Source: Terrimonas sp.
Lineage (GTDB): Bacteria; Bacteroidota; Bacteroidia; Chitinophagales; Chitinophagaceae
Length of the DNA: 64,000 bases
Assembly (NCBI RefSeq): GCF_003075435.1
Contig: NZ_QCZJ01000001.1
Span: 496,001-560,000, forward strand
Reading direction: 5' to 3'
Positions within the stretch are counted from its first letter, which is position 1, and every line of letters begins with the position of its first letter. The position numbers and the translations under genes are program-made. A model generated the notes under the pieces. That model saw nothing but the letters and a program-made list of their open reading frames with translations, was not told the DNA's origin and did not search any database. This document shows positions 54,258-63,449 of this stretch, piece by piece.

Positions 54258-54347
54258 TAAAAAAATTTATATATAGAGTAATTATTTTAAATCTTGTGTT
54301 CCCAAGGTTAATCTCAAATCCATTATTTCACTGCCCGCTGCGCTTTG

Positions 54348-54402
54348 TTACCGGAATATTAAAATAACATTACCGGAATGTTACCAAAACTTTGTTGGGA
54401 CG
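54348..54402. promoter_or_regulatory. 11-base-phased TTACCGGAATA direct-repeat array, copy 2
   Basis: Five consecutive 11-base units all begin TTA or TTG: TTACCGGAATA, TTAAAATAACA, TTACCGGAATG, TTACCAAAACT and TTGTTGGGACG. The full core recurs at 22-base spacing. The same layout is found at 62633-62698 beside the phosphate-transport genes. Eleven-base phasing is typical of OmpR/PhoB-family binding sites. It is 91 bases upstream of dnaB and left of the DnaA-like boxes. Confidence 0.65.
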
Positions 54403-58307: not shown

Positions 58308-59777
58308 TCAGTTATTCGCGAATTTTGTCCAGCCTTTGTGCCAGCCTGCATATTCGCCGGCAGGTGCAATCGCTCCCAGGAAATTCACCTTTGTTATAAA
58401 CGTTCTTGCAGTAATAATCGGATCGTCAAAATAAGTATATGAGTCTTTATCTTTTTGATCTACCAGGATTGAAGAAGCATTACCGAAAGGAATAAAATCA
58501 GGTGTTGAATAATCAAACGGACGGGTATATAAATTGTCGGCAACATCCAACTTCCTGTTTTTATATTTAGCATCCAAAAACCAGTTATAAATATCATCTG
58601 TGGTTTTACCCGTAACATCAGAATTACTTCCTTTAGTATAGCTGACAGGAGTTTTACATCCGGCAACAATCACCCCTCCTATTCTTAATGTGTTATCATC
58701 AAATATATTTCTATCAGTTGCCCTTCCTGTACTTGCATCAATAAGAATACCAGTAGGCCAGCCAAGAAACACTGAATTTACAATAGATATAGAAGAATTT
58801 CTCCTGATCTGCGCGCCAGCAAGATAGTTGCTGTTGCCCACATTGCTCAATGTAGCCAACGGCCCTACAGAAGTGACATTAGAGAATACAGCCCTGGTTT
58901 GTGGCGTTACAGTAGAACCGGCAGCATTGTTATCACTTTCAAATGATTCTGATTTTGAAATATCAGCAATCAGAGAATCTCTAACGATCAAACCAAATTG
59001 TACACTGCCGCTATAACCGTTATCCGTATCAAAATCGTCATCCTGTGTTTTATATGCAATAAGATATTTGCAGTTCACCGTACCGCCGAACCACTCAAAC
59101 GCATCATCTTTTGCATAAGAAACCTGCACGTGATCAATTGTTGTGCCGCTACCTACTGCTGCCAGGGTAAGGCTGTTTACTTCTTTATCAGGCTGGTACG
59201 CATAGCCTGCATATTCAATTCTTACATACTGTAATGTTCCGCTGTTGTCAGCGTCATCAGGTGTAGCACCGCCACCTGCAAGCCCGTCGCCATTAGCGTT
59301 ATTAATTCCACCTTCTACCTCAAGTATACCTTTACCGCCACCGGTGCCGGTAAACTCTGTATTAATGCTTGCCTTTCCGCAAATTACTATACCGCCCCAA
59401 TCCCCGGAACGGGGGTCAGGTGAGGAGCTGGTGAACACAATCGGCTCATCCTGTGTACCCTTTGCTTCAATTTTAGATCCACGCGTAATTACAAGTGCTG
59501 CTACGTTTGTTCCTTTATAATCCCCCTTAACTGTAGCGCCGGCTTCCACCGTTAATGTAGCACCATTGGCTATATAAACAATACCAGACAAAATATTTTC
59601 ATCGCCCTTCTTTAATGTAATATTTTCAGTAATACGTCCAGTTAACGTAACAGTAGAGCCATTGCCATTGCCATTACCGTTACCATTTCCACTTCCGCTA
59701 CCATCCATTTCAATTTTACGGCAACTGGCTGTCATCAATATTATCGCCACTGCAGCCGATAGTGTAAATTGTTTCAT
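58308..59777 (-). CDS. Surface or periplasmic lipoprotein with beta-helix-like repeats
   Basis: A 489-residue lipoprotein: signal MKQFTLSAAVAIILMTASC with Cys19 as the lipid site, then a flexible Gly/Ser/Asn linker (GSGSGNGNGNGNGNG) encoded by a hexanucleotide repeat. The body consists of short strands typical of right-handed beta helices (VYIANGATLTVEAGATVKGDY, VITRGSKIEAKGTQDEPIVF, SGDWGGIVICGKASI) and many Asp/Asn clusters suited to calcium or phosphate binding. It is 29 bases after the TonB receptor gene, so the two form an operon, as surface lipoproteins and receptors often do. No catalytic motif is recognised. Confidence 0.8.
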   Translation of the reverse strand: MKQFTLSAAVAIILMTASCRKIEMDGSGSGNGNGNGNGNGSTVTLTGRITENITLKKGDENILSGIVYIANGATLTVEAGATVKGDYKGTNVAALVITRGSKIEAKGTQDEPIVFTSSSPDPRSGDWGGIVICGKASINTEFTGTGGGKGILEVEGGINNANGDGLAGGGATPDDADNSGTLQYVRIEYAGYAYQPDKEVNSLTLAAVGSGTTIDHVQVSYAKDDAFEWFGGTVNCKYLIAYKTQDDDFDTDNGYSGSVQFGLIVRDSLIADISKSESFESDNNAAGSTVTPQTRAVFSNVTSVGPLATLSNVGNSNYLAGAQIRRNSSISIVNSVFLGWPTGILIDASTGRATDRNIFDDNTLRIGGVIVAGCKTPVSYTKGSNSDVTGKTTDDIYNWFLDAKYKNRKLDVADNLYTRPFDYSTPDFIPFGNASSILVDQKDKDSYTYFDDPIITARTFITKVNFLGAIAPAGEYAGWHKGWTKFANN

Positions 59778-59806: not shown

Positions 59807-62599
59807 TTATAAACTGTAATTGAATGTTATACTAAAGGTTGTTCCCCATTTGCGTGAAAAACGGATGGGGTCTTTATCTTTCTGAAAGCTTGTTTTATCA
59901 TCAGTATTCTGGTAGAAGTACTGTGTTTGATTTAAGATGTCTGAAATATTCAATCGTATTTCCGCTTTATTCTTAATAAGCTTTTTTGCTAACTGAAAGT
60001 CAAGAATGGGTCTTGCGGCTTCATATATATCAGGCGAGCCCGCGCCGGCAGATATATCTCCTACAAGGTATATGCGCTCTCCGATCTGGTTAAATAAAAC
60101 AGTTGCTGTAATACCTGATTTCTCCAAATCATACATCAAACCAAGGTTAACAGTGTAGGGAGATTGCCCCTGCAAAGATCTTTTCAGGTTAAGTCCTTTA
60201 TCTTCTACCCTGCTGTATATGTATGCCGCATTTGCCTGGAATGTGAAGTTTTTAAGCGCGTTTACGAAATCAAGCTTTTGGCGTATTTCCAATTCTGCAC
60301 CGTATGATTTTGCTTTCTCCGGGTTTTGATAATTGAAAGTACTGGCGCCACCGCTGCCGGCGTTAAATATCTGCTCAATAGGATCAGCGAAGTATTTATA
60401 AAAAACTCCAATAGAAAATATTTCACCGGCGCGTGGATAAAACTCATACCTGATATCAGCATTAGAAACCTTTGTGCGTTTTAATGCAGGATTGCCCTGT
60501 ATGGAAGCATTCAATTCAAAATCGTAGAGGTTTAAGAATGCCAGCTCTCTCAACTCCGGCCTGATAACGGTTTGCGAACCTGACAAACGAAGATTGGTTT
60601 TACTGTTTAATTTCAGTGTTGCATTCAAGCCCGGCAAAAAGTCATTTACTTTTGAATATGTATATCTCGGGTCGCTTGTTTTTGTACTGCCTACCAACTG
60701 ATCATAATTTTCTACACGCAATCCCCAAACTACACGCAGCAACGGCGAAAATTGATTATCAAACTGAATATAACCTGCATTGAGAATTGTATTAGCGAGA
60801 TAACGGAAATTGGTTCCTTTAATAATATCAAAAGCGAATTTGTTACTGTTGCCGGCACCGTCTCCAAAATTTCCAGGTGCAAAAACCTGGTCAGCGGGCA
60901 ACTGGCGCAATGCTGCATTATCTACAGGCAAATACACTGAAAAAGGTTTTGCATCGTACAAACGGTCTTTTACCTGCAGCATATAACCGCCCTTAACGGT
61001 TTGCTTTTGATTAAAGAGATTGAAATTATAGTTCAGATCGCCGCCCGCAGTGTATATATAATCATTGAGTGTTTGATATATCCTGCTGCCACTTTCCTGC
61101 GAAAGTGAGTTTCCTATAGCAAGCAGATAGGGATCCTGTGAGCCGATGGTTTGTGTATATAATATCCGGCGCTGATCAGGAGTATATGCATCCAAAATAT
61201 TAAATGAACCATACCATTTTAATTTTAACGGAGCAGCTAAACTATGCTCACCAATTGCCTGCACAGTAAAAAAAGTATTCTGCCTGAATTTTATTTCAGC
61301 GCCATAAATATTATCATTACGGACATTGCTTATACCTGAGCGGTTAGTGATGAAGTTGGTAGTATTAACATTTAAAACAGACTTAACAGAAATTTTGTTG
61401 AGTGAATTAAGCTGCATGGTCAGGCTGCCCAAAGCACCCCAGCTTACATCCTGCGAATATTTATCGTCATTATAATTATAATCAATTGAAACATTCTGCT
61501 GATCTATAGAATTCACCCTGTTCAGTAATTTCTGGTAACGGTTGATTTTATTATATACTACACTTATTACGCCACCGGTTTTTTTACCAAATAATGTAGT
61601 ATTCATTCCCCCGTTTACCTGGAAGGAAGTATTAAGCGGTGCTTTTCCTTTTACACCGGTCCAGGAATTTTTCATGGATTTACCAATAGCGGCTTTATCA
61701 GCGGCAGATAATTCATCAAACTGTGATTTAGTGGTATACGTTGCCGGTAAACTGCGATAACCATCATCAACACCAAGCCAGTCAAATTTGCCTCCGGGCA
61801 CTTTATAAAAATCTTTACCTACTGTTTGGGAATTAAAGCCGGTGCCCACCTGCACATTAAAAAAATTCTTCGCCGGCACATCTTTGGTATTGATCTGTAT
61901 CAACCCGCCTGCCCACTCGCCGGGAAACTCCGGAACAAAGGCTTTATTGATAACGATATTATCAACGATCTGCGCCGGGAACATATCAAAAGAGAACGCT
62001 TTACGATCAGGCTCAGTGCTGGTAAGTAAAATTCCATTCAGCATTGCCTGGTTGTACCTGTCTGCCAATCCTCTCACTACCACAAATTTATTTTCCTGCA
62101 GGCTCACTCCGGGTATGCGTTTCAATACTTCTCCGGTATTTCTGTCCGGGCTTCTGCGTATACTTTCGGCTGAAATAACAGAAGCAACGGTATTTGTATT
62201 TTTTTGAAATTGTATAGCAGAAGAAACCGTTTCCATTCTTGCACTGGATTTCTTTGCTGTTACAACAATGCCTTCCAGGTCTTTTGCTTTTACATTGATT
62301 ACTACGTTCAATTCATTAACCTGCCCGCTGCTCACCTCCACATCCGTAATAGTTTTATTTTCATAGCCAACTGCAGAAAATTCAAGTTCATATTTCTTAC
62401 CAATGCTAAGAGATAATGTATATATACCCCCGATATCCGTTACTGTTCCTGAAGCTCCGGTTACTTTTACCGTAACGCCGGAAACCGGTTCGTTTTTTTC
62501 ATTTATTACCTTACCAGACAACTTAACTGTTTGAGCCTGAACAAATGAGAAAGAAAATAAAAGCATGAATACCGCACAACTTTTTAGCTTGATCTGCAT
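59807..62599 (-). CDS. TonB-dependent receptor with carboxypeptidase-like N-terminal domain
   Basis: A 930-residue outer-membrane receptor. The signal peptide (about 1-23, ending FVQAQ) precedes a carboxypeptidase-regulatory-like domain (about 25-110, KVINEKNEPVSGVTVKV), the plug (about 120-240; RRSPDRNTGEVLKRIPGVSLQENKFVVVRGLADRY) and a barrel ending GTTFSITFNYSL. It is co-transcribed with the beta-helix lipoprotein and diverges from the DUF47-Pit genes. TTCCTTTG (62621-62614, minus strand) is its probable -7 element, and the 11-base repeat array covers the -33 position, which suggests activator dependence. Phosphate or phospho-ester uptake is inferred from context only. Confidence 0.93.
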   Translation of the reverse strand: MQIKLKSCAVFMLLFSFSFVQAQTVKLSGKVINEKNEPVSGVTVKVTGASGTVTDIGGIYTLSLSIGKKYELEFSAVGYENKTITDVEVSSGQVNELNVVINVKAKDLEGIVVTAKKSSARMETVSSAIQFQKNTNTVASVISAESIRRSPDRNTGEVLKRIPGVSLQENKFVVVRGLADRYNQAMLNGILLTSTEPDRKAFSFDMFPAQIVDNIVINKAFVPEFPGEWAGGLIQINTKDVPAKNFFNVQVGTGFNSQTVGKDFYKVPGGKFDWLGVDDGYRSLPATYTTKSQFDELSAADKAAIGKSMKNSWTGVKGKAPLNTSFQVNGGMNTTLFGKKTGGVISVVYNKINRYQKLLNRVNSIDQQNVSIDYNYNDDKYSQDVSWGALGSLTMQLNSLNKISVKSVLNVNTTNFITNRSGISNVRNDNIYGAEIKFRQNTFFTVQAIGEHSLAAPLKLKWYGSFNILDAYTPDQRRILYTQTIGSQDPYLLAIGNSLSQESGSRIYQTLNDYIYTAGGDLNYNFNLFNQKQTVKGGYMLQVKDRLYDAKPFSVYLPVDNAALRQLPADQVFAPGNFGDGAGNSNKFAFDIIKGTNFRYLANTILNAGYIQFDNQFSPLLRVVWGLRVENYDQLVGSTKTSDPRYTYSKVNDFLPGLNATLKLNSKTNLRLSGSQTVIRPELRELAFLNLYDFELNASIQGNPALKRTKVSNADIRYEFYPRAGEIFSIGVFYKYFADPIEQIFNAGSGGASTFNYQNPEKAKSYGAELEIRQKLDFVNALKNFTFQANAAYIYSRVEDKGLNLKRSLQGQSPYTVNLGLMYDLEKSGITATVLFNQIGERIYLVGDISAGAGSPDIYEAARPILDFQLAKKLIKNKAEIRLNISDILNQTQYFYQNTDDKTSFQKDKDPIRFSRKWGTTFSITFNYSL

Positions 62600-62613: not shown

Positions 62614-62621
62614 CAAAGGAA
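62614..62621 (-). promoter_or_regulatory. -7 element of the TonB receptor operon
   Basis: TTCCTTTG on the minus strand (one mismatch to TAnnTTTG), 14 bases before the ATG. No TTTG occurs 19-21 bases further up; that place is taken by the repeat array, as in activator-dependent promoters. Confidence 0.5.
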
Positions 62622-62632
62622 TACAGGTACTG

Positions 62633-62698
62633 TTACCGAATGGTTACCGGAATATTAATAGTAGATTACCGGAATATTATGCAAACATTACCCCGGTG
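62633..62698. promoter_or_regulatory. 11-base-phased TTACCGGAATA direct-repeat array, copy 1 (candidate Pho box)
   Basis: Six consecutive 11-base units all begin TTA: TTACCGAATGG, TTACCGGAATA, TTAATAGTAGA, TTACCGGAATA, TTATGCAAACA and TTACCCCGGTG. They lie between the divergent TonB receptor and DUF47-Pit operons and end about 57 bases before the -33 of the latter. Direct repeats with 11-base phasing are the form of E. coli and Bacillus PhoB/PhoP boxes. Next to a phosphate transporter a Pho box is the simplest reading. A shorter copy is at 54348. Confidence 0.65.
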
Positions 62699-62755
62699 TA
62701 GAAAATGTGCATTTTAAAAATTTCCAATGTTAAGAAATCATTAAGTATAAAAATA

Positions 62756-62788
62756 TTTGGCCGACCGCAAATGATAAAACTATTTTTG
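62756..62788 (+). promoter_or_regulatory. Promoter of the DUF47-Pit operon
   Basis: TTTG (62756-62759), 21 bases, TATTTTTG (62781-62788) match the Bacteroidetes promoter consensus fully. The ATG at 62805 is about 16 bases further. Confidence 0.75.
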
Positions 62789-62804
62789 TCCAAATTTTTT
62801 GTTC

Positions 62805-63449
62805 ATGCTTAATTCTATAATGAAGCTTTTTCTACCTAAAGACAGGATCTTTTACCAGTTATTTGAAGAGGTAGCATCCAAAGTATTAGAAATGGCCAGG
62901 AAGCTGAGGGAATTGATGCATGAACCTGATCATGATAAAAGATCTGCCATTGCTTCGCAAATTGAAGAGCTGGAACATGTGAATGACGATCTTACCCATA
63001 AAATTTTTACCGAATTAGGCAGGAACTTTATTACCCCTTTTGACAGGGAGGATATTCACTACCTCGCGTCCGCGCTGGATGATATCGCGGATTACATCCA
63101 TGCTTCTTCCAAAAAAATAAAATTCTACAAGGTTAATCCCAATGAACAGGGTATGCAAAAATTTGCAGACCTGATTGTTGCCGGCGCCGAACATATAAAT
63201 ATCGCGGTGCATGAACTGCGCAACATGAAAAATCTGCGCCAGATCACGGAGTCATTGGTAAAAATCAATAGTATAGAAAACCAGGCTGATGATATTTTTG
63301 ACATGAGCATAGAACGCTTATTTGAAATGGAGCCTGATGCCAAAGAAGTAATAAAGAAAAGGGAAATATACCAGGTGCTTGAAATTGCTACAGATAAATG
63401 TGAAGATGCTGCCAATGTAATTGAATCTATTATTGTTAAATACGCATAA
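62805..63449 (+). CDS. DUF47 family (PhoU-like) protein, Pit accessory factor
   Basis: A 214-residue all-helical cytoplasmic protein of the DUF47/YkaA family. I start at the ATG at 62805 (MLNSIMKLFLPKDRIFYQLFEEVA), which matches the usual N-terminus; the ATG at 62820 is second choice. PhoU-like metal-binding helices carry acidic patches (ELEHVNDDLTHKIFTELGRNFITPFDREDIH and SIENQADDIFDMSIE). DUF47 genes are nearly always next to pit genes and are thought to control the transporter. The Pit gene follows 70 bases downstream. Confidence 0.93.
   Translation: MLNSIMKLFLPKDRIFYQLFEEVASKVLEMARKLRELMHEPDHDKRSAIASQIEELEHVNDDLTHKIFTELGRNFITPFDREDIHYLASALDDIADYIHASSKKIKFYKVNPNEQGMQKFADLIVAGAEHINIAVHELRNMKNLRQITESLVKINSIENQADDIFDMSIERLFEMEPDAKEVIKKREIYQVLEIATDKCEDAANVIESIIVKYA

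Follow-up and report, generated by a model that had tools for sequence, protein, structure and literature searches.

The PhoP box of Bacillus consists of TTAACA repeats at 11 bp, and its consensus is alike in core and period to the array that we describe here. The cyanobacterial Pho box (SphR) is made of CTTAACCT repeats with a 3-bp linker (PMC1906773), and the PhoB box of E. coli is composed of 11-nt direct repeats with the core CTGTCAT (PMC4415409) and sits 10 bp upstream of the -10 element (PMC1906773). Among Bacteroidetes, PhoB of Bacteroides fragilis binds a 512-bp fragment of the pst promoter (PMC3547664); the accessible part of that article contains none of the terms 'consensus', 'binding site' and 'direct repeat'. 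The PhoBR cluster of Flavobacterium johnsoniae includes a receptor, Fjoh_0545 (PF07715, PF13715, PF14905), and a pectin-lyase-fold lipoprotein FII, Fjoh_0546 (PMC8115612). Upon phosphate depletion, Fjoh_0545, Fjoh_0546 and PlcP are induced, with transcript changes of 8.02, 9.91 and 8.59, respectively (assumed to be log2), and the porin OprP of the cluster is not induced (-1.3) (PMC8115612). The words 'motif' and 'pho box' do not occur in the accessible text of this study, which gives no promoter box, and we found no Bacteroidetes Pho-box sequence in the open-licence literature.

The locus that we compare with these systems lies in a window of 64,000 nucleotides from Terrimonas sp. (the whole stretch of DNA that was analysed), whose features are collected in Table 1. 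Positions 62633-62698 can be read directly on the plus strand as TTACCGAATGG TTACCGGAATA TTAATAGTAGA TTACCGGAATA TTATGCAAACA TTACCCCGGTG, that is, as six 11-bp units with TTA at each start, including two full copies of TTACCGGAATA at 62644 and 62666. This array is real: shuffling the 199-bp gap 20,000 times (dinucleotide shuffles) never gave six in-phase TTA, nor four in-phase TTAC, and its score of 32.0, obtained with a matrix trained on the receptor promoters of relatives (window excluded), compares with a shuffle maximum of 20.1 (0/5,000 shuffles reach the score). The sequence-only reading had described these six units and had placed them between a divergent receptor/lipoprotein operon and a DUF47-Pit operon, and both observations hold, the gene coordinates agreeing with this location. 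It had also called the core unlike the boxes of E. coli or Bacillus, which has to be revised. The plus-strand core TTACCGGAATA (or TTACCG) is the complement, i.e., the antisense, of a single local variant. Read on the minus strand, which codes for the receptor, the units of the window follow [GTA]TAA[CT]NNNNNN, and the core, [GT]TAAC-A-T, is near the cyanobacterial CTTAACCT with its 3-bp linker as published (PMC1906773). In the register common to the relatives the same array runs from 62691 to 62626. A search with Rfam at gathering scores gave no match within the window.

Table 1. Features of the receptor/DUF47 region and of the dnaB region in the window, and of the candidate regulator locus elsewhere in the same genome.
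Feature	Position	Strand	Remark
Second array, four units, upstream of dnaB	54341..54384	-	On dnaB strand; TTTG at phase 8 absent
Lipoprotein-like protein, second gene of the proposed operon	58308..59777	-	Without Pfam match
TonB-dependent receptor, proposed target gene	59807..62599	-	Pfam: PF13620/PF13715, PF07715, PF00593/PF14905
Receptor promoter -7 element TTCCTTTG	62614..62621	-	TTTG starts 8 bp past the last unit
Pho-box-like array, six 11-bp units: GTAATGTTTGC ATAATATTCCG GTAATCTACTA TTAATATTCCG GTAACCATTCG GTAACAGTACC	62626..62691	-	Register common to relatives
Possible seventh unit, degenerate, TCTACACCGGG	62692..62702	-	By-eye reading
-33/-7-like pair for DUF47-pit, TTTG-N21-TATTTTTG	62756..62788	+	Outside the array
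DUF47 (PhoU_div) gene, divergent neighbour of the receptor	62799..63449	+	
Pit gene	from 63520	+	
Regulator G000:C40, best NF053854 match of the genome	L248 7245-7943		Receiver and Trans_reg_C domains
Kinase behind the C40 regulator	L248 7960-9009		

The receptor/lipoprotein pair agrees with Fjoh_0545/Fjoh_0546 in domain set and gene order, a receptor being followed by a lipoprotein without Pfam match, a likeness in make-up only (PMC8115612); unlike the F. johnsoniae cluster, the window has no adjacent phoBR. The structural model of the lipoprotein-like protein is beta-rich (mean pLDDT 77), and its fold matches are weak, none having an E-value below 0.001, the best-ranked ones being largely beta-helix proteins (epimerases, tailspikes, pectate lyases). 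In the promoter of the receptor, the TTTG of TTCCTTTG (62617-62614) starts exactly 8 bp past the last unit of the array, and direct reading reveals no TTTG 19-21 bp upstream of TTCCTTTG. This element differs by one base from the flavobacterial -7 box TAnnTTTG (PMC9723704).

Homologues of the receptor were obtained at 59 loci from one scan of named genome contigs, many of them from Chitinophagaceae. Spacing was tested in the upstream regions of 52 of these loci and of the window, 53 in all. Pairs of TAA[CT] peak there at distances of 11, 22, 33, 44 and 55 bp (128, 90, 69, 57 and 35 pairs, respectively), other distances having mostly fewer than 15 counts, with the exceptions of 30 bp (20) and 52 bp (25), and 35/53 regions did better than 300 shuffles at p<0.05. 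The unit consensus in the related receptor promoters, trained on 34 loci, is [GT]TAA[CT]ATTNSS. An array over the threshold is present in 34/52 receptor promoters, 31 of them with an in-phase TTTG, and these promoters constitute no test of the matrix; seven of the 59 loci were left out of this count, six because their upstream sequence was too short and L131 because its match was weak. The remaining 18 have no array by matrix score; among these misses are contigs of Fluviicola, of Ignavibacteria/Kapabacteria and of some others, as well as L094 and L108 from the training set.

An out-of-sample test was offered by pstS and phoX loci, which were collected by protein family in 147 genomes of the same family and scored with the matrix from receptor promoters alone. 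PF12849 matched at 1e-26 in 88/147 genomes, and 30 pstS loci, among the matches listed, were used; PhoX matched in 8/147 genomes, and all nine loci were used. In the genus, PF12849 matches are mostly a protein of ~315-345 residues whose loci all lie below the array threshold (12/12), and therefore strong matches alone were counted as PstS. A narrow test, restricted to at most 480 bp from the domain, gave p<0.05 at 3/30 pstS and 3/9 phoX loci and p<0.01 at none, and its eight top 'controls' turned out to be arrays before the gene preceding pstS, or before phoX. The search zone was extended upstream, past the gene preceding pstS, after the narrow result was known; strand bias and TTTG phase had no part in this choice. 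With the wider zone, arrays scoring at least 15 were found at 20/30 pstS loci (among the matches listed) and 4/9 phoX loci, all 24 on the gene strand versus none on the opposite one (116,706 bases per strand), and an in-phase TTTG accompanies 19/20 of the pstS arrays. Arrays were missing from 10/30 pstS loci, two of which are truncated where their contigs stop (L202, L203), and from 5/9 phoX loci. The background at the same threshold amounts to 26 matches in 1,896,454 strand-bases (8 with an in-phase TTTG), a count that includes both arrays of the window, further dnaB arrays and a pstS array of G009.

After 18/20 pstS arrays, an open frame of 393-486 residues comes next. From their common N-terminal part we infer that these frames encode porin-like proteins; among the ten searched with Pfam, two match Porin_O_P and eight match no family. 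Elsewhere in the class, outside the family, a gene-strand array with in-phase TTTG is found in 4/6 pstS stretches from 5 genomes (G235, G288, G265, G318), that of G288 with one antisense match too (15.6), and no array is found in those of G239 and in the second one of G265. Beyond the class, 28 loci of 1,560 bases each gave two matches, neither with an in-phase TTTG.

Overall, in 31/35 receptor, 18/20 pstS and 3/4 phoX arrays the TTTG that comes first after the array has phase 8 in the 11-bp register. Phase 8 thus provides the fixed spacing to a core promoter element that is expected of a Pho box replacing the upstream element, and the replacement of the -33 contact by an activator would explain why the phase between array and TTTG is so rigid.

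Within the genus, a strict pattern of three units plus in-phase TTTG, with no mismatch, has 14 sites in 12 genomes versus 2 for the reversed pattern used as control; six of these sites precede the receptor and eight precede a gene for a PlcP-like phosphoesterase. No excess was seen when one mismatch was permitted (53 versus 57 in the control), and a genus search for four TAAC with at most two mismatches gave fewer matches than its control (61 versus 101), though it did reveal that G002 and G005 have the dnaB array. The PlcP-like proteins have 277-281 residues and a common N-terminus, and the three of eight that were scanned all contain PF00149 and PF12850, the latter domain being carried by PlcP of F. 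johnsoniae (PMC8115612). LpxH-type NCBIfam models stay under their cut-offs with the Terrimonas protein, and therefore 'PlcP-like' is a working name, given from domain and size. The Terrimonas genome itself has two strict sites, the one in the window and one before its PlcP-like gene, behind which lies a family 1 glycosyltransferase (PF13528); this region (L318 5225-7259, G000:C47) contains a pair that suggests membrane-lipid remodelling.

These comparisons lend support to the earlier proposal of an 11-base Bacteroidetes Pho box, a predicted activator site over the -33 of the receptor, the same phased array being found before porin-like/pstS, phoX and PlcP-like genes. The search that had been suggested along with it, for TTACCG repeats in relatives, succeeds for the corrected motif, which does lie before phosphate genes, and is weak for the motif as first written: TTACCG occurring twice, 22 bp apart and without mismatch, has 64 matches (in 25/38 relatives) versus 40 for the reversed pattern, and the TTACCGGAATATTA repeat occurs among these matches only in the two arrays of the window genome, so that this version would hardly pass the proposed test.

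By its period, core and target genes, the array is, judging from sequence, a Pho box, with a core closest to the CTTAACCT repeats published for cyanobacteria. It consists of 11-bp direct repeats and is situated before genes of phosphate starvation in the same lineage (pstS, phoX, PlcP-like), and [GT]TAA[CT]ATTNSS compares well by eye with CTTAACCT plus 3 bp as published. Like the described cyanobacterial box, it has an 11-bp period, at least three tandem units, a TTAAC core and a place before pst and phosphatase genes; it is unlike it in the exact unit, in having a Bacteroidetes -7 TTTG at a constant phase and in the regulator lineage. It shares with the E. coli PhoB box, as described, the replacement of an upstream promoter element by 11-bp direct repeats at a fixed distance, and is distinguished from it by another core, by up to six or more units and by a -7 TTTG instead of a sigma-70 -10. 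The report on B. fragilis PhoB concerns binding to a Bacteroidetes pst promoter, in a different species from that of the window. Two points are new: the array is phased to the -7 element, and its probable regulator lies outside the current model.

We therefore consider it highly probable, from comparative sequence evidence, that the array is a PhoB-type activator site that replaces the -33 of the receptor operon and acts as a phosphate-starvation switch. Points that speak against it are the outcome of the narrow pstS/phoX test, the receptor, pstS and phoX loci that have no array, the relaxed patterns that do not exceed their controls, the naming of PlcP from domain and size, and, in the Terrimonas genome, the sub-cut-off PhoB score and the lack of PF12849 and PhoX matches at the thresholds given below. 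In phosphate starvation, a phosphorylated response regulator of the OmpR/PhoB family would bind the 11-bp repeats head-to-tail, one per helical turn, so as to cover the -33 region on the receptor strand and to place its last subunit directly upstream of the -7 element. RNA polymerase, having no -33 contact, would then be recruited by the regulator, and the TonB receptor/lipoprotein operon, a putative outer-membrane pair for phosphorus scavenging, would be switched on. Binding, phosphorylation, activation and the role of C40 (G000:C40) as the reader are all presumed steps of this scheme. Expression studies have documented phosphorus acquisition by soil and aquatic Bacteroidetes; a defined box with a fixed promoter phase would allow the phosphate regulon to be predicted in genomes of the class, would assign a likely role to receptors and lipoproteins not yet characterised, and would make the regulator directly testable.

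As to this regulator, the Bacteroidetes PhoB model of NCBIfam (NF053854) reaches at best 206.8 bits in the Terrimonas genome, below its cut-off of 270. The cut-off is passed in 2/12 genus genomes, G009 and G010 (L184, L319), in both cases with PhoR, and in none of the other ten. G009 has the gene order pstSCAB-phoU-phoB-phoR, and its pstS is preceded by an array (score 17.7) with an in-phase TTTG. The Terrimonas genome has no PF12849 match at 1e-26 (weaker ones have 2.9e-23 and 1.2e-10) and no PhoX match at 1e-20. The array is likely to be read by a regulator of the OmpR/PhoB type other than the annotated Bacteroidetes PhoB, and C40 would be the best, if unproven, candidate for this reader. 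Relatives of the C40 regulator (49-70% identity) and/or of its kinase are found near the receptor at 9/58 loci, within 6-kb flanks, and beside pst in 3/20 stretches, both counts being limited by the flanks (L328 with both, L323 with the kinase, L202 with a partial regulator). A C40-type regulator is kept in G010 (L251), and no match above 45% was found for G009 among the loci fetched.

The second array of the window, upstream of dnaB, contains near-perfect copies of TTACCGGAATA at 54348 and 54370. The same array is present in G002, G003, G004, G005, G006 and G008 (7/11 genus genomes examined, the window genome included) and absent from the dnaB-pheT regions of G001, G009, G010 and G011; the stretch from G007 held neither gene. 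The seven genomes with the dnaB array are exactly those in which the receptor lies beside DUF47. Tentatively, we envisage a second, C40-type PhoBR lineage in Chitinophagaceae that is outside the current PhoB model, has its own TTTG-phased box and also acts on the array, lacking an in-phase promoter, before the replicative helicase gene dnaB, which might tie chromosome replication to phosphorus supply.

The array before dnaB would also fit another regulator of the OmpR family (YycF/WalR-, MtrA- or RpaB-like) that governs an envelope or cell-cycle programme and has phosphate genes as only part of its targets. Such a regulator would be in line with MtrA and RegX3 being the best solved-structure matches of C40, and with the YycF sites predicted in S. 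epidermidis, which include TTAACAAAAAATTTACA before pstS, a like sequence with 11-bp spacing (PMC5405149). Yet all 14 strict sites of the genus precede the receptor or the PlcP-like gene, and the arrays of the wider family precede pstS operons and phoX, which makes this explanation unlikely.

It is very improbable that the array controls DUF47-pit, the divergent operon, and not the receptor, even though it lies in their common intergenic region and Pit is a phosphate importer: both the units and the in-phase TTTG belong to the receptor strand, a score of -19.9 is obtained on the DUF47 strand, and arrays stay with receptors whose DUF47 is ~1.3-3.9 kb off or did not turn up in the locus. We assign the site to the receptor operon and not to DUF47-pit, which in the window has its own -33/-7-like pair. 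The TTTG-N21 pattern of this pair is seen at 2/12 DUF47 loci of the genus, the window's own counted, and is therefore not generally kept in the genus. The 22-bp distance between the full TTACCGGAATA copies of the window, recurring between the near-perfect ones of the dnaB array, could point to a LytTR-type or other regulator using that spacing; with 128 pairs at 11 bp against 90 at 22 bp in relatives, and an alternation of strong and weak units that is not kept among them, we regard this as extremely improbable. Chance or a low-complexity repeat, for which one could invoke the short units and the A+T-rich gap, is a negligible explanation in view of the shuffles, of the phase and core kept in diverged relatives and of the arrays before unrelated phosphate genes.

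Returning to the receptor loci, the upstream regions of the Fluviicola-type and related receptors (L107, L109, L114, L126, L127, L130), which have no array by matrix, show by eye units like TTCATAATTTG TTTACACAAGC CTTACAATCCA, which may represent an 11-bp box that has diverged. In relatives, more arrays with an in-phase TTTG lie downstream of the receptor/lipoprotein operon (L096 3049-3092 and 6470-6513, L091 10265-10308), and presumably mark further members of the regulon.
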